This document shows positions 32,822-41,181 of a DNA stretch of 64,000 bases, one piece after another. Source of the stretch: an uncultured Pseudomonadota bacterium (GTDB lineage Bacteria > Myxococcota_A > Bradymonadia > Bradymonadales > Bradymonadaceae). The translations under genes and the position numbers were made by a program. Below the pieces are notes generated by a model. The model had not been told where the DNA came from, did no database searches, and saw nothing but the letters and a program-made list of their open reading frames with translations. The stretch spans positions 248,001 to 312,000 of the forward strand of contig CAJXPB010000002.1 in assembly GCA_913057905.1 (NCBI GenBank), given 5' to 3'. Each line of letters starts with the position of its first letter. Positions within the stretch are counted from its first letter, which is position 1.

Positions 32822-33859
32822 ATGACCGAGGGTTCCGACAGACAGGAGAGCATCGCCTCGACGATCTTCGGGGCACGCGAGGAGCCGCGCCGAATCGCAC
32901 AGGAGGCCGAACGTAAGCGACGGGCCCGCCGTGCCGAACACACCCCGGCCGACGACTCGCCCGTGGCCATCGTCTTCGGTCTGCGGAACGACGAACCATC
33001 GTCTTCCGGAGGCCGCTGGCGCCGCCCCGCCGTCTCGATCGCCCTCGCCGTGGCAGCCCATCTTCTCTTGACCGGACTCGCCTGGTCGGGCGGCATGGGC
33101 ACCTACGAGCCCCCCGAGGTTCCGGAACCCGACGAGCCGATGACCGTGAGCACCATGACCGTGCCGACGGCGACCGAACCGCCACCAAAGCCAGAGCCGG
33201 AGCCGACACCCGAGCCCGCCGAACCGGAACCCGAACCGACTCCGAAACCGGAGCCTACGCAACCCGAACCTGCTGAATCCGAGCCGTCGCCCCCGGAACC
33301 TCAACCATCTGAAAAGCCCTCGCCAAAACCGGAGAACGCGCCGGCGGAGGATTCATCCAGCAAGGAGGCCGCTCCCGCGCCTGCCCAGGCCGGCGAGGTC
33401 GTCAGCCAGGACTCTCCCGACTCGCAGGTCGCCGACTTCACCGATTTCGAGATGACCGAGGGCAGCGGCGACGACTACGCCGGCGGCGTCACGGCTTCCG
33501 ACGGCACCTCCACCGAATCCGTCGGCAAAGACGAGGTCCACGAAGACGGCGTCGCCGATGGAACGGGCGAAGGCCCGGCCACTGGCTCACCGGCCCGCCC
33601 CGCCGGCACCGACTGGGACTGCACCTGGCCTAAACAGGCCCGCTCCCTGTCGACCGACGAAGAGACCGTCACCCTGCGCGTGAACGTCAAGGCCGACGGC
33701 ACGCCGACCAAAGCGACCGTCCTGTCGGACCCCGGTCACGGCTTCGGCCGCGCCGCGCGCCGCTGCGCCCTCTCGCGCTCCTATCAGCCGGCGACCAACC
33801 GCTCCGGCCAGACCATCTCCGCCCAGACGCCCCCGATCCGCGTGCGGTTTACGCGGTAG
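32822..33859 (+). CDS. tonB: TonB-type energy transducer
   Basis: This 345-aa protein has an unusually long charged cytoplasmic N-terminus (1-67), one membrane helix (about 68-88, AVSIALAVAAHLLLTGLAW), a Pro/Glu/Lys-rich linker (about 95-190), an acidic region, and a TonB C-terminal domain (about 255-345). The last contains VTLRVNVKADGTPTKATVLSDPGHGFGRAARRCALSRSYQPA. GGAGG precedes the ATG, 1 nt after exbD. It is the last gene of the operon and is followed by inverted repeats. The receptor has its own TonB-like domain, so two such domains are encoded in one operon. Confidence 0.9.
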   Translation: MTEGSDRQESIASTIFGAREEPRRIAQEAERKRRARRAEHTPADDSPVAIVFGLRNDEPSSSGGRWRRPAVSIALAVAAHLLLTGLAWSGGMGTYEPPEVPEPDEPMTVSTMTVPTATEPPPKPEPEPTPEPAEPEPEPTPKPEPTQPEPAESEPSPPEPQPSEKPSPKPENAPAEDSSSKEAAPAPAQAGEVVSQDSPDSQVADFTDFEMTEGSGDDYAGGVTASDGTSTESVGKDEVHEDGVADGTGEGPATGSPARPAGTDWDCTWPKQARSLSTDEETVTLRVNVKADGTPTKATVLSDPGHGFGRAARRCALSRSYQPATNRSGQTISAQTPPIRVRFTR

Positions 33860-33867
33860 CGGCGGCC

Positions 33868-33940
33868 ATTTTCCTATTTCGGGCATTTTCTCGCGTAGGA
33901 AAATTCAGCATTTGGGAAAACGCATGTTTGGGCATGCGTT
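33868..33940 (+). terminator. Two inverted repeats after tonB, possible terminator
   Basis: A 9-bp perfect stem (33868-33876 with 33896-33904, 19-base loop) is followed by an 8-bp perfect stem (33919-33926 with 33933-33940, 6-base loop). Neither is followed by a clear T-run, so the terminator call is weak. The first also matches the operator-like module found upstream of the next gene. Confidence 0.4.
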
Positions 33941-34083
33941 GTTTCGGAATCGAGATATCACGCTGATCCACGATTCCGGCACGGGCGAGGTGTAGTTTTC
34001 GAACGATGGTCATCCCGGCCTCGCGAGGCGCACAGCGCCTCGCATCGGGCCGGGCGATCACGCGGCGTGTCGCCGCGGAATAG
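33941..34083 (+). repeat. Dispersed intergenic palindromic element, copy B
   Basis: It starts GTTTCGGAATCGAGATATCA and contains GGCACGGGCGAGGTGTAG, then ATCCCGGCCTCGCG. A hairpin follows (GCGAGGCGC with GCGCCTCGC, 34023-34043), then ATCGGGCCGGGCGATCACG, a second hairpin (GCGGCG with CGCCGC) and CGGAATA. It is nearly identical to copy D over its first two thirds. Confidence 0.75.
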
Positions 34084-34170
34084 CCAGGCCAAGATCGACG
34101 AATCAGGGTAAATCGGTCGTGTTCGTGAACGTCTTCCGTCCGCTTCACACAACTACAGGGCAGGAACACC

Positions 34171-34207
34171 TATTTTCGTATATAGAGTGTTTTCTCCAAT
34201 GAGAAAA
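34171..34207 (+). promoter_or_regulatory. Operator-like module, upstream copy
   Basis: TATTTTCGTA, ten bases, then the inverted repeat TTTTCTC-CAAT-GAGAAAA (34190-34207). The same layout recurs exactly 82 bp downstream. Confidence 0.55.
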
Positions 34208-34230
34208 TCAGCTTTTTAGGAAATTACCAC

Positions 34231-34290
34231 TTGACCCGAACCACCAGTGAGATATTTTCGTACTTGATGCCATTTCTCATAGGAGAAAAC
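34231..34290 (+). promoter_or_regulatory. Promoter with second operator-like module
   Basis: TTGACC (34231-34236), a 16-bp spacer and TATTTT (34253-34258) form a fair sigma-70 promoter. The second module copy (TATTTTCGTA at 34253, inverted repeat TTTCTC-ATAG-GAGAAA at 34273-34288) overlaps the -10 box and the start point, a good place for a repressor site. Confidence 0.5.
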
Positions 34291-34305
34291 GACAAAGTTA
34301 CGAAA

Positions 34306-35388
34306 ATGGACGATAGAGAAGCCCGGCAGACATTCGAAAGGACGCTTGAGACGGATCCCGAGTTCTTCTGGCCGCTAAAGGTCGAACTTATCGAGCGTGC
34401 GTTATCGGGCGACAACGGAAACCAGAGGGCGGATCTACGCCTCCAACTGTCGCTCGATGGCACGAGACAGCCGTGTGTGGTTGAGATCGATTCAACATCC
34501 ACGCCGAAATCCGTCGAACGAAAGACAGCGCAAATCCGAGAGTATCTGAACAGGAGGAACGCAGCCGATTGCCCGGCTCTCTTGATCCGTTATCTTTCGG
34601 GTGGAATCGCCGAAGTACTCAAAAAGCGGGGGATGAGTGCACTGGACCTGAACGGAAACTATCTGGTTCAGACATCGAAGTTTGCAGCCGTCCGGCTGGA
34701 CCAGAAGAACCGCTTCCCGCGGTCTCGCCAGATTAAGAATGTCTACCGAGGGACCTCATCGCTCGTCGGCCGGTTCCTCCTGCGAAAGCCAGACGTCTTT
34801 GAACGGGTGCAAGACATTCATGACGGCATCCTGGAACTCGGCGGAGACATCAGCCTTTCCACGGTGTCAAAGGCCCTCTCCGGACTGGACGATGACCTTC
34901 TCATCCACAAGGAGCGGGGCGAAATCCGTCTGACTCAACCGGCGGAGTTGCTCTCCCGCCTGCAATCAGAGTACCGCCAACCGAAGATCCAGAATGAATG
35001 GCGTCTCAAGTTGCCTGAGGACCGCGCGGAACAAGAGCGGTGGCTTACCGGCATGTTCGGCGAAGAGTCTACCTGGCTGTGGGGTGGAGTCACCTCGGCC
35101 GAAACTCGCACATCGTCGCCCTCCGACTCGGTGAGATACGCGTACACTCGCCCATTCGAGACAATTCCGGATAGCCTCCGGGAACGCGAGAATCGACGAT
35201 TTTACAACTGCATCGTCCAGGAAACAGACACGGACTTCGTCTTCTTCGGCCGACAAGATCACCAGGCTGACGACGTGCAATGCTACCTGGAGCTAGCGAA
35301 CCTCCAGGGAGATTCGAGAGTCGCAGAAATCGCTGAAACATACCGTGAGAACATCCTGACACGCTTCCGGGGGACCTCTCCCACATAG
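34306..35388 (+). CDS. AbiEi-like regulator with degenerate nuclease-like N-terminus and winged helix
   Basis: This protein is 360 aa from the ATG at 34306. ATG 34267 and TTG 34231 are also in frame, but both fall in the promoter/operator modules. The N-terminal region resembles a PD-(D/E)XK fold: RADLRLQLSLDG, then CVVEIDSTSTPKSV, where the usual E-x-K lysine is Asp, so it is probably inactive. Next comes LKKRGMSALDLNGNYLV, the RG-x-x-x-x-DL-x-GN motif that I associate with AbiEi-like type IV antitoxins. A winged-helix region follows (ILELGGDISLSTVSKALSGLDDDLLI). No AbiEii-type toxin is nearby. Base composition is lower in GC than the neighbours, suggesting transfer. It likely represses its own promoter through the repeated palindromes. 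Confidence 0.6.
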   Translation: MDDREARQTFERTLETDPEFFWPLKVELIERALSGDNGNQRADLRLQLSLDGTRQPCVVEIDSTSTPKSVERKTAQIREYLNRRNAADCPALLIRYLSGGIAEVLKKRGMSALDLNGNYLVQTSKFAAVRLDQKNRFPRSRQIKNVYRGTSSLVGRFLLRKPDVFERVQDIHDGILELGGDISLSTVSKALSGLDDDLLIHKERGEIRLTQPAELLSRLQSEYRQPKIQNEWRLKLPEDRAEQERWLTGMFGEESTWLWGGVTSAETRTSSPSDSVRYAYTRPFETIPDSLRERENRRFYNCIVQETDTDFVFFGRQDHQADDVQCYLELANLQGDSRVAEIAETYRENILTRFRGTSPT

Positions 35389-35415
35389 TGCATCTTCTCA
35401 GACGGGCAACGCCCC

Positions 35416-36336
35416 TCAATCAACAGAAAACGGAACGGCCTCGGAATCGATGTTCGTCCAGAAGGAAAGTGTGCGGGATCCTGAAACCTGGAGGCGAGCG
35501 GCGATATTTACGAGTTTGATGCCCGGAGTATCGGCTCCCGAGACCCAGCCACTGACGTTCTCGACACGAAGTGTCGACGAGGTCGCTTCCCCGTTTGTCG
35601 ACGTGCATGTCGACTCGACGGAGCCAGCCCTGACGACCGCAGGGCGAAACGATTCTAGCCACACGCGAAATTGCCTTGCTGCCGGCATAGTAACGGTTCG
35701 ATCGTCTTTGAGCACGACCGTACACTCATATTCGGCGCGCTCGGACGTCTCAGCACCGAATGACACCGTCAGGGACGGGGAAGGCAACGAACCATCACCA
35801 CGGTCCAAGCTCAATCCTCCATCCGCTACATCTCCATCGATGTAGTAGCACTCGTCGGACGCCCTGGGAGCGACTTTGAACTTGAGGGCTTCCGCCGTGT
35901 GACACGGCTGAAGTACCGGGTTTTGAAGTTCGATGCGTCGATCACTTTCTCGGACCATTCCGCGAACAACGCCGACCCGCGGACTAGACTGTCGACGAAG
36001 TTCCACGTCCGCAACCTCGTCGTATTCTTCCATGAGCTCCAACCCTTGGACTTGTCCCAGTCCGGAAACGGGCTTCCAGCGATCCGCGGAGGGCCGTTGG
36101 AACTGGCCGTCGGTCACCTCGATGTCCGTATCGTCATCGAGAACAACTCCTTCAGTTCCGTCCTCCGTGGAGCGGATGAGAACCTGCCGTTGCTCTGGAG
36201 GTGTATCAGTCGCGTCTGCCGACCCGTGCTCAAACCATGGCGACTGGCCGTCGCGTACGTCGGTATTACAGCTCGCCGCGGAGATGACGGCGCAGGAGAG
36301 CGCGACTGCCGCAATGGTTGTAATGGGCTTTCGCAT
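35416..36336 (-). CDS. Lipoprotein of unknown function, paralogue of the gene at 36562
   Basis: This 306-aa lipoprotein is not recognised as any family. ATG at 36336 is chosen because GGGAGG lies about 6 nt upstream and the following leader (MRKPITTIAAVALSCAVISAASC) ends in a lipobox. The mature part starts NTDVRDGQSPWFEHGSADATD, with an acidic linker, then two beta-rich halves. Cys pairs (PCHTAEALKF, DECYYIDG, YECTVV, ESTCT) suggest disulfides in an exported protein. It is near-identical over long stretches to the upstream gene, including the last 25 residues and the 3' flank. It could be exposed on the cell surface. Confidence 0.8.
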   Translation of the reverse strand: MRKPITTIAAVALSCAVISAASCNTDVRDGQSPWFEHGSADATDTPPEQRQVLIRSTEDGTEGVVLDDDTDIEVTDGQFQRPSADRWKPVSGLGQVQGLELMEEYDEVADVELRRQSSPRVGVVRGMVRESDRRIELQNPVLQPCHTAEALKFKVAPRASDECYYIDGDVADGGLSLDRGDGSLPSPSLTVSFGAETSERAEYECTVVLKDDRTVTMPAARQFRVWLESFRPAVVRAGSVESTCTSTNGEATSSTLRVENVSGWVSGADTPGIKLVNIAARLQVSGSRTLSFWTNIDSEAVPFSVD

Positions 36337-36398
36337 TGATGACCTCCCTACTTTGGGCGTGCATTGAGAATTCTGGAGATTCGAGGTCCGGGGATCAA

Positions 36399-36478
36399 GT
36401 TGACCCACGATTCGGGGCCAGGCGATCACGCGGCGTGTCGCGCCTTTGGCGCGCCGCCGCGGAATGAGCAAAGGCGGT
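36399..36478 (+). repeat. Dispersed intergenic palindromic element, copy C (short form)
   Basis: It has TGACCCACGATTCGGG, then GGCGATCACGCGGCGTGTCGC. A longer hairpin follows (GCGCC with GGCGC around TTT, nested in GCGGCG...CGCCGC), then GCGGAATGAGCAAAGGCGG. The last part equals the end of copy D. It separates the two paralogous lipoprotein genes. Confidence 0.65.
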
Positions 36479-36561
36479 TCCCGTACCCGTGCGTTCATCC
36501 CGTTCCAAAATAGCGAGGAACTTCTCTCGATTAGGGCATTTTCTCGGACGGGCAACGCCCC

Positions 36562-37572
36562 TCAATCAACAGAGAATGGAACGGCTTCCGAATCGATGTT
36601 CGTCCAGAAGGAAAGTGTCCGGGGTAGTTCGTCGTCGCCATTCTCACCGGTCGGCCCTGAAACCTGGAGGCGAACGGCGATATTTACGAGTTTGATCCCC
36701 GGACTATTGATGCTTCCCGAGACCCATCCAGTGATATCCTGGACTCGAAGTGTCGACGAGGTCGCTTCCCCGTTTGTCACTGTGCATGTGGACTCGACGG
36801 AGCCTTTGCTGACGACCGCAGGGCGAAACGAGTTTAACCGCACACGGAACTGAAATACTGCCGGCCTAATTGCGGTTCGTTCGTCTTCGAGCTCAACAGT
36901 GCACTCATATTTGGCACGCTCGGGCGCCTCACCACCGAATGACACCGTCAAGGCTAGAGATCTCACCCAATCATCCCTTCGGTTTTCCCCGTCCATCCGC
37001 CCGACCACTGCATCTCCATCAATGTAAAAACACTCGTCGGACGCCCGGGGAACGACGTTGAAATCGAAGGCCTCCGCCGTGAGACAGGTCTGGAGTGCAG
37101 AGTTTCGAAGTTCGATGCGTCGATCGCCCTCTCGAACCATTCCGCGAACAACGCCGACCCGAGGGCTAGACAGTCGACGAAGGTCCACGTCCGCAACCTC
37201 GCCGTATTCTTCCATGAGCTCTAAACCTTGGACTTGTCCCAGTCCGGACACGGGCTTCCATCGATCCGCGGAGGGTCGTTGAAACTGGCCGTCGGTCACC
37301 TCGATGTCGGTATCGTCATCGAGAACAACTCCTTCAGTTTCGTCGTCGGTGGAGCGGATGAGAACCTGCCGTTGCTCCGGAGGTGCATCAGTCGCGTCTG
37401 CCGACCCGCGCTCAAACCATGGGGACTGGCCGTCGCGTACGTCGGTATTACAGCCCGCCGCGGAGATGACGGCGCAGGAGAGCGCGATCACGGCCAAGCT
37501 TGTCACGGTGACGGAGTTGATTCCTTCGTCCCCCGAACGGCCATAGATCAGACTTGAATGTGAGTGTCCCAT
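36562..37572 (-). CDS. Lipoprotein of unknown function, paralogue of the gene at 35416
   Basis: This 336-aa lipoprotein has start ATG 37572 with GGAGGAG about 5 nt upstream. It has a longer N-terminal leader than its paralogue (MGHSHSSLIYGRSGDEGINS before the hydrophobic stretch) and a lipobox ISAAGC followed by the same NTDVRDGQSPWFE. The body keeps the same Cys pattern. It differs from the paralogue mainly by an insert near the C-terminus (SGPTGENGDDELPRT) and by scattered changes. It lies 12 bp after the 195-aa lipoprotein gene and is surely co-transcribed with it. No known family was recognised. Confidence 0.8.
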   Translation of the reverse strand: MGHSHSSLIYGRSGDEGINSVTVTSLAVIALSCAVISAAGCNTDVRDGQSPWFERGSADATDAPPEQRQVLIRSTDDETEGVVLDDDTDIEVTDGQFQRPSADRWKPVSGLGQVQGLELMEEYGEVADVDLRRLSSPRVGVVRGMVREGDRRIELRNSALQTCLTAEAFDFNVVPRASDECFYIDGDAVVGRMDGENRRDDWVRSLALTVSFGGEAPERAKYECTVELEDERTAIRPAVFQFRVRLNSFRPAVVSKGSVESTCTVTNGEATSSTLRVQDITGWVSGSINSPGIKLVNIAVRLQVSGPTGENGDDELPRTLSFWTNIDSEAVPFSVD

Positions 37573-37584
37573 CGTACTCCTCCA

Positions 37585-38172
37585 CTAGAGTTCAGGCTGC
37601 AGCCTGCAGTCGAAACCGGTCTCCGGTGCCTCATTTGCTGCCGGTTCGACTTCGGACCCAACCCTGAAATCCTTCTGGTCGCCGCAGGCCTCTTGAACAG
37701 ATATTTCGTTGAGCACGAGAACGTCACCAAGTTCAAAGGAACGGTCGGAAAAATCGACGACCACGCGGCCCCCGTCCGGCTCACCTTCGACGGTAATGGA
37801 CTCCGTTTGATTGGATTCCCTTCGGATCGTCGCCTCGACCGTCAACGCGGCAATCTCAGTGTCTTCTCGATTGTACTCGATGATCCACTCGTCGGACGAC
37901 GGAGTGAATGTAGAAGGAGGGTCCTCGCCATCGCTACCTTCGGAAAAATTGAAGGTATCGCAGGTGAGGACCGCCTCTGAGCAACAGCGCACATTTCCCT
38001 GCGAATTCGTCCATTCGTCGTCGCAATTGCGCATGACATCTTCGGTGTCCGTCTGCCCGGTGTCCGACGGGTTGCTGGTTCCATCCGGAACACCCATGGA
38101 GTCCGAGCCGTCACATCCAAGGCTGACCAAAACGAGCGCTAAGGCCGCGACGATTACGATGAGCTTCCGCAT
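37585..38172 (-). CDS. Small lipoprotein of unknown function (195 aa)
   Basis: The leader MRKLIVIVAALALVLVSLGC ends in a lipobox. The mature protein has an acidic Ser/Thr/Asp-rich linker, a Cys-rich stretch (NCDDEW, VRCCSEAVLTCDTF) and a beta-rich C-terminal half. GGGAGG lies 6 nt before the ATG. It is the first gene of the lipoprotein operon and lies directly behind the promoter with a nine-G spacer tract. Its layout resembles the two larger lipoproteins, but it is not clearly homologous by eye. Function unknown. Confidence 0.8.
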   Translation of the reverse strand: MRKLIVIVAALALVLVSLGCDGSDSMGVPDGTSNPSDTGQTDTEDVMRNCDDEWTNSQGNVRCCSEAVLTCDTFNFSEGSDGEDPPSTFTPSSDEWIIEYNREDTEIAALTVEATIRRESNQTESITVEGEPDGGRVVVDFSDRSFELGDVLVLNEISVQEACGDQKDFRVGSEVEPAANEAPETGFDCRLQPEL

Positions 38173-38228
38173 CGAGCACCTCCCGTTGCGTGTCTAGACA
38201 CACACCTCGAATGCTGGCGTACGTTTAT

Positions 38229-38257
38229 GACTGTAAAAGTACCCCCCCCCTTGTCAA
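38229..38257 (-). promoter_or_regulatory. Candidate phase-variable promoter with a G9 tract in the spacer
   Basis: On the minus strand: TTGACA (38252-38257), then A, nine consecutive G (38242-38250) and TACTTT, then TACAGT (-10, 4 of 6 matches). The spacer is 16 bp. A change in the number of G would shift the spacing between the boxes. The predicted start lies about 50 nt before the lipoprotein ATG at 38172. Confidence 0.55.
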
Positions 38258-38267
38258 ATCAGCGCGC

Positions 38268-38450
38268 GTTTCGGAATCGAGATATCAAGGTGTTCCACGA
38301 ATCGTGGATGTGAGAGATGTAGTTTTCGAAGGATGGTCATCCCGGCCTCGCGAGGCGCACAGCGCCTCGCGTCGGGCCGGGCGATCACGCGGCGTGTCGC
38401 GCCGATTGTTTGGAAGCGATGGCGCGCCGCCGCGGAATGGGCAAAGGCGG
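38268..38450 (+). repeat. Dispersed intergenic palindromic element, copy D (long form)
   Basis: It starts with the same 20 bases as copy B and shares GTAGTTTTCGAA, GATGGTCATCCCGGCCTCGC and the GCGAGGCGC/GCGCCTCGC hairpin, then GCGATCACGCGGCGTGTCGC. The second hairpin is enlarged: GCGGCG...GCGCC pairs with GGCGC...CGCCGC across a 17-base loop. It ends GCGGAATGGGCAAAGGCGG, as in copy C. Confidence 0.75.
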
Positions 38451-38667
38451 CTCACGATCACTCCACCGGGAGAGGCCAGTTCCCCCGGGGTCCTCCACGT
38501 CCAACCTCAACGTAAACGTCCACGTGCCACCTGCACGCCCGTCGTAAACGTCCAACCTAAACCTTCTCGTGGTCGCGTGTCGTGCATCCTGTGACATCTG
38601 ATCAGGTAGATGGTACATCCCGCCGCGGAGGAGTCATTCCCTAGCCGTGCCGAATCAGGAGTCGAAC
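38451..38667. other. Leader region before the topoisomerase gene
   Basis: About 215 bp with no gene. It has two imperfect copies of CGTAAACGTCCA(A/C) (near 38510 and 38540). No convincing promoter was found. Two possible ribosome sites (GGAGGAG at 38627, AGGAG at 38657) precede the two candidate start codons. Confidence 0.4.
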
Positions 38668-41181
38668 GTGGCGTCGAAACCGCGCATCGAGAAAGTCAAT
38701 CTGCACGAGACCGCGGAGGAGCGGTACCTCAACTACGCGATGAGCGTCATCACCAGTCGGGCCCTGCCCGACGTGCGCGATGGCCTCAAGCCGGTCCAGC
38801 GGCGGATCCTGTATTCGATGTGGTCGAATCTGAAGCTCGACCACGAGTCAAAGCCTCGAAAGAGCGCGGCGATTATCGGTGACGTCATGGGGAAATATCA
38901 CCCCCATGGCGACCAGTCGATCTACGACGCGATGGTGCGCATGGCCCAGCCCTTTTCGATGCGCAACCGGCTCGTGGACGGCCACGGCAACTTCGGGTCG
39001 CTCGACGGCGACAGCGCGGCCGCCATGCGATACACCGAGGCGCGGCTGACGGCTCTGGCCGGCGAGCTCCTCGATGAGATCAACAAGGACACCGTCGACT
39101 TCCGCGACAACTACGACGGGACGGAGCGCGAGCCGACGGTCCTGCCGGCCCAGGTGCCGAATCTTTTGGCCAACGGCGCCACGGGCATCGCGGTGGGGAT
39201 GGCCACCAACATCCCGCCGCACAACCTGGGCGAATGCCTCGATGCGTTGATCGCGCTTATCGAGAACCGCGACCTGAGCGTCGACGAGATCGTCGGCAAC
39301 TACATTCTGGGCCCGGACTTCCCGACCGGCGGCGTCATCCTGAACACCCAGGAGGAGCTGCGCGAGATCTACCGCACCGGCAGCGGCACCGTGCGGCTGC
39401 GCTCCGAGTGGGAGAGCCCGTCGAAGACGAGCATTTTGATCCGGTCGGTCCCCTACACGACCAACAAGGCGAAGATCGTCGAGACGATCGCCAACCACAT
39501 CGTCAAGGGCGACCTGCCGCAGGTCAAAGACGTGCGCGACGAGTCGACCGACGAGGTGCGCATCAAGCTAGACCTGAAGAGGAGCACCGACCACGAGACG
39601 GTCATGGCCTACCTCTTCAAGCACACCAATCTGGAGTATCGGTTCCACGTCAACATGACGACGCTGGTGCCGCCCGACGACCAGCAGACGCTGGTGCAGG
39701 AGCACGACGAGCTGCGCGAGATGCTCCAGTCGCTGGCCATCGATCCCGACGACGAGACCGACACGTCGGTGCCGGTCATCGAACTTCTGGACTACCTGAA
39801 CGACCTTGAGGTCGAGGCCGACCCACCGCCGGTCCTGCAGCCCGCTTCCATCGATCTGAAGGAGGCGCTGACGCACTTTCTGGACTTCCGCATGGAAGTC
39901 TACGTGCGCAGCCTCATCCACGACCTTCAAAATGTGCTCGGCCGCATCCACATCCTGGAGGCCTTCGAGACGATCTTCGACGACCTGGATCGCGCCATCG
40001 AGCTGATCCGCTCGTCGGCCAGCAAGAAGGAAGCCGGTCAGAAGCTGCGCGACCACTTCCACATCGACGAGGATCAGTCCGAGGCGATCCTCCAGACGCG
40101 GCTCTACCGTCTGGCGCGCCTGGAGATCGAGAAGATCCGCCAGGAGCTACAGGAAAAACGCGAGGAGGCCGCGCGATTCCAGCAGTTGCTCAACGACGAG
40201 GAGCTTCGCTGGGAGGCGCTCAAGCGAGATTTTCAGGAGCTACGACGCGGCTACGGCGGCACCCAACGCGGCCATCGGCTGACCCAGGTCGACGCCGAGA
40301 CCCTGGATTTGAGCTACAGCGAAGAGGACTACATCGTCGACGAGGACGTCTGGGTGATGGTCTCGCGCGACGGCTGGATCAAACGCCAGGGCTCGTATTC
40401 GGACCTGTCGACGATCCGTGTGCGGGACAACGACGAAGTCGGATGGGTGCTGCCTGGACGCACGCCCGAGACAGTGGCGTTTTTCACCAACCTGGGCCGC
40501 GCCTACACGATGCGCATCAACGAGGTGCCGTCGACGACGGGTTATGGCGATCCGCTGCAGGCCTTCTTCGACTTCGACGACGGCGAGGTCGTCGTCGGCG
40601 CGGTCACCTACGACGATCGAGTTCTGGATCCGCCGCCGCCCGAGCAGGAATCATTGGAAATTGGCGAGGACGGCGAAGTCGAGACCGACGAGCCGCCGCA
40701 GGTCATCGCCATGACCGAGTCGGGACGCTCGGTGCGCGTGGGACTGGAAGACTACAAGGACACGTCCACCGTTCGCGGCCGGATGTTCATGCGGCTGGAG
40801 GACGGCGACCGGGTCGTCAATGTCGAACAGTTTACCGGCCGCCAGCTCGCCGTGGTCGCAAGCCGCGACGGGCGCGGGCTGATCTTCGATGCCCGCGAGG
40901 TCAACTTCTACAAGGGCAACGCAAAGGGAGTGCTGGCCATCAAGCTGGAGGAAGGCGACGACGTCCTGGACTTCACGCTGGTGCCCGCCGGACGCAAGCG
41001 CGCCGGCCTTGAGGTCGAGACGAACAACGGCCGCAAGGAAGTCATCCGTCAGACCAAATCGAAGTTCAAACCGACCAGCCGCGGCAACAAGGGACACCTG
41101 ATCATCAAGCGCGGCCACCTGATCCGCTCCCATCGCCCGCCCGTCGAAATCGAGAAGGACGACGAGGAAGACGACGAGTGA
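38668..41181 (+). CDS. Type IIA DNA topoisomerase A subunit (GyrA/ParC family)
   Basis: This 837-aa protein runs from the GTG at 38668 (AGGAG 6 nt upstream); a GTG at 38647 is also possible. It breaks and rejoins DNA. It has [45 protein letters not shown] and the active-site Tyr122 in [11 protein letters not shown]. With this start, residue numbers match E. coli GyrA exactly (H78, H80, D82, Y122, D87). Position 83 is Gln instead of Ser/Thr. The C-terminal beta-pinwheel lacks a canonical GyrA box (QRRGGKG); the nearest is [10 protein letters not shown], which favours a ParC-like enzyme. The tail is acidic. No gyrB or parE is in the window, so GyrA versus ParC is left open. Confidence 0.93.

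Follow-up and report, generated by a model that had tools for sequence, protein, structure and literature searches.

The window analysed here, a stretch of 64,000 nt, contains three lipoprotein-like ORFs on its minus strand, and the first of these is preceded by a promoter-like sequence with an unbroken run of nine G residues between its two boxes (Table 1). The 195-aa and 336-aa genes plausibly form a lipoprotein operon, as had been proposed in the original prediction: the N-termini of the operon ORFs resemble signal peptides ending in a Cys residue, which is in line with that proposal, but the first gene has an atypical lipobox (SLGC), and the 195-, 336- and 306-aa ORFs all stay below the cut-offs of the Pfam and NCBIfam families. 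For the 195-aa ORF a search of 38 relatives gave a single weak local match (E 2e-5, 36% over 75 aa), and the 336-aa and 306-aa proteins are without a match in these 38 relatives, being confined to their own genome out of the 39 searched, where a broken third relative of the two paralogues is located on contig C1. No counterpart of the leader DNA was found in 18 relatives, nor did the relatives searched, among them the sister species, show a clear counterpart of operon plus leader, and the operon appears to be species-specific. The divergent neighbour on the other side is, judging from its sequence and its relatives, a GyrA/ParC-type topoisomerase gene, and searches of named genomes via this gene gave distant matches only. 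In the sister species the topoisomerase gene likewise has a divergent lipoprotein-like ORF beside it, and inspection by eye revealed no G tract between them.

Table 1. Features of the lipoprotein-like locus, and long G runs at other sites in the same genome and class
Feature	Position or locus	Strand	Remarks
-35 hexamer TTGACA	38252..38257	-	sequence; region promoter scan
G9 tract within 16-nt spacer	38242..38250	-	flanked by A and T
-10 hexamer TACAGT	38230..38235	-	sequence; promoter scan
Perfect 12-bp palindrome GTGTCTAGACAC	38190..38201	no strand	in leader; possible operator
Ribosome binding site GGGAGG	38179..38184	-	by eye; rated good
Start codon ATG	38172-38170	-	first gene
195-aa lipoprotein-like ORF, first gene	37585..38172	-	ORF, N-terminus
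336-aa lipoprotein-like ORF	36562..37572	-	12 nt past first gene; probably same operon
306-aa paralogue of 336-aa ORF	35416..36336	-	78% identical; preceded by partial repeat copy
Full repeat copy	38268..38403	-	promoter just downstream
Second full repeat copy	33941-34073		nearest to the 38268-38403 copy
Partial repeat copy	36415-36483		upstream of 306-aa ORF
Second G run of at least 9 in own genome	L010, around 1501		G10, in frame, in FkbM-type methyltransferase gene
Third G run of at least 9 in own genome	contig C4		G10, ~50 nt downstream of large ORF
Spacer before ribosomal protein S16 gene	L181, 1501-1563		G9, 17-nt spacer; family checked
Ribosomal protein L35 gene	L148		G8, 17-nt spacer; looser pattern; family checked
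PhoU-like DUF47 gene	L138		G8, 16-nt spacer, -10 box TACACT; family checked
Lipoprotein gene, other family of the class	L142		G10, 17-nt spacer; looser pattern

Read on the minus strand, the promoter-like sequence is TTGACA-AGGGGGGGGGTACTTT-TACAGT, which confirms to the base the earlier description of a TTGACA and a TACAGT box placed 16 nt apart with nine G residues between them. This pair is the top sigma-70-like match of the region (scan score 10/12), in a scan of 1.5 kb that gave two promoters where 0.5 +/- 0.7 were expected, and at spacings of 12-21 nt from TTGACA there is no reasonable -10 box other than TACAGT. Between the -10 box and the ATG lies a leader of 57 nt, and its palindrome may be an operator. 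Boxes, spacing, leader, ribosome binding site and gene all support the promoter that had been predicted here, and the TTGACA/TACAGT pair is likely to be the promoter of the lipoprotein-like operon, its spacer containing a long G run.

Just upstream lies a dispersed repeat which the original prediction had missed. It forms two hairpins, and among its 33 stem pairs there are six in which both sides have changed with pairing kept; it occurs at about 34 places in its own genome and at none in 18 relatives, and no Rfam family matched anywhere in 33800-38800. The G tract is not part of this repeat, a possibility that was rejected since the other copies lack the tract and the homology between the two full copies stops 10 nt before the -35 box. 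With its many dispersed copies, two conserved hairpins and covarying stems, and with six short Y1_Tnp genes encoded in the same genome, the element is similar to REP-type repeats; one apparent difference is that, within loci of 3.3 kb, no copy was found beside any of the six Y1_Tnp genes. Downstream of some repeat copies (L127) a unit of ~30 nt, CCAGCCGGCTGCCGATTCCAAAGACACGAT, is present in tandem.

The frequency of such an arrangement was assessed in a 464-kb sample of the own genome (928 kb of strand) and with genome-wide pattern searches. TTGACA followed after 16-18 nt by a -10 box at least as good as TACAGT was found at three sites in the 928 kb of strand, and the chance overlap of such a box pair with any of the three G runs of at least 9 in the genome is ~9e-5 (~1e-4), a figure to be given only moderate weight because it is post hoc and because a run located 70 nt before a gene is necessarily near a promoter. 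The G run is not significant by itself, as a dinucleotide shuffle predicts 3.9 G8 matches whereas two were observed; from the run-length spectrum of the genome, a G/C run of at least 9 is expected ~0.1 times per 64 kb. Thus the rarity resides in the coincidence of the G run with the box pair, which is unlikely by chance, and not in the run itself. A genome rich in contingency tracts was considered and rejected, as long G/C runs are not in excess: there are three of at least 9 in 4.25 Mb, compared to 6-9 by geometric extrapolation of the run-length spectrum of the 464-kb sample. Similarly, there was no support for G-rich spacers as a general feature of this genome, with no such trend and no second promoter-like site with such a G-rich spacer in the 464-kb sample. 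The G10 run within the FkbM-type methyltransferase gene is a candidate translational slippage site. A relative from the same order (G021) has ~2,500 G9 matches compared to far fewer in most relatives, which may be artefact or biology.

We expanded the search to the class, where TTGACA with a G8 run and TANNNT at promoter distances was found six times among 57 genomes, compared to zero for the reversed pattern; this control was not matched for codon usage, so that the enrichments with both the strict and a looser pattern are only indicative, and several of the sites found with the looser pattern lack a -10 box. The genes behind these spacers include those for ribosomal proteins S16 and L35, and ribosomal genes are unlikely targets of phase variation; a poly-G spacer is therefore not by itself evidence for a switch. 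The S16 and L35 spacers are themselves in predicted promoters, with imperfect -10 boxes (TAGGGT and TATACA). For the lipoprotein gene from another family of the class, a comparison of tract length with congeners gave no clear orthologue, only matches to repetitive domains.

The original prediction had likened the locus to the Neisseria meningitidis porA promoter, and this comparison is correct with regard to layout: porA has a poly-G run between the -35 and -10 boxes and a spacing near 17 nt (PMC7864442, PMC3899988). The same position of the poly-G run is found in Treponema pallidum tp0126, encoding an OmpW homologue, for which the optimum spacing is 17 nt, as it is for porA (PMC7864442). The differences lie in what is known of each system: for porA it has been demonstrated that the tract varies in length and that transcription changes with it, and for tp0126 reporter assays have tested the promoter and how it depends on length, whereas the present promoter is known from its sequence, in an organism and before a product unrelated to those of porA. 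In tprL the tract varies from 7 to 11 G in vivo, with 9 G the most frequent length (PMC7864442), and work on the Neisseria phasome has used 9 as the length threshold for phase-variable poly-G tracts (PMC5953494). Since nine G residues give a spacing of 16 nt and ten give 17 nt, slippage would be expected to alter promoter strength.

We favour, with moderate confidence, a sigma-70-type promoter in which the G9 run is ordinary spacer sequence. The boxes would be recognised by the main RNA polymerase, driving expression of the species-specific lipoprotein operon, and the run would fill part of the 16-nt spacer, being most likely long by chance and not an evolved contingency switch; rare slippage would leave a spacer of 15 or 17 nt, with lower or higher expression as the result. 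This reading is supported by the ordered array from boxes to ORF with its rare box pair, by the absence of an excess of long G/C runs, by the presence of a MutS with its C-terminal ATPase domain, and by the class members with poly-G spacers before S16, L35 and DUF47 genes; elsewhere, loss of MutS or MutL leads to higher phase-variation rates (PMC5084427). Against it, the S16 and L35 examples are predictions, the G9 site is unique in the sample of its own genome, the run reaches the Neisseria threshold of 9 (PMC5953494), and a promoter that pairs a consensus -35 box with a weak -10 box should be spacing-sensitive.

The main alternative is an evolved phase-variable promoter of the porA/tp0126 kind, in which slippage in the G9 run would give spacings of 15, 16, 17 and 18 nt and hence set the expression of a surface lipoprotein operon to low, medium or high. 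The exact layout favours this, as one additional G gives the 17-nt optimum of tp0126 and porA (PMC7864442), as do the prevalence of 9 G in tprL (PMC7864442), the similar arrangement of a G10 run and 17-nt spacing ahead of the L142 lipoprotein gene, from a different family of the class, and the six to zero ratio in the class-wide search. Conversely, a genome with only three runs of at least 9, the presence of MutS, the similar spacers before ribosomal genes, and the missing G tract beside the topoisomerase gene of the sister species all speak against an evolved switch, which we consider tentative. Phase variation at the G9 promoter is thus possible, at the same tentative level, and it is doubtful whether this is a genuine porA-like contingency promoter on a species-specific lipoprotein operon with the lipoprotein gene of the other family as an independent example, which would imply a repeated origin outside host-adapted pathogens.

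A reading in which the box pair is fortuitous or at most a minor promoter, and in which the operon starts elsewhere or uses a different sigma factor and the G run does not matter, is improbable. The TACAGT box matches the consensus at 4/6 positions and lacks an extended -10, and consensus matches do arise by chance (0.5 expected in 1.5 kb), but the -35 box is perfect and lies at the right distance from a start codon that has a good ribosome binding site, and the box pair is rare in the genome. Although several sequencing methods are prone to homopolymer errors, a wrong tract length in the assembly, through such an error or a mixed population and with a true spacing other than 16 nt, is very improbable, as 16 nt is a workable spacing and the assembly itself gives no hint of an error at this place.

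The preferred reading, an ordinary promoter whose spacer holds a long G run, and the evolved switch differ in their consequences. If the tract proves invariant, the locus calls for caution, since poly-G runs also occur in promoter-like spacers before ribosomal genes of the class and the layout alone then cannot identify a switch. Our literature searches gave no report of phase variation by spacer slippage for this class; if the tract does vary, the class would join the host-adapted pathogens from which this form of transcriptional phase variation is mainly known.
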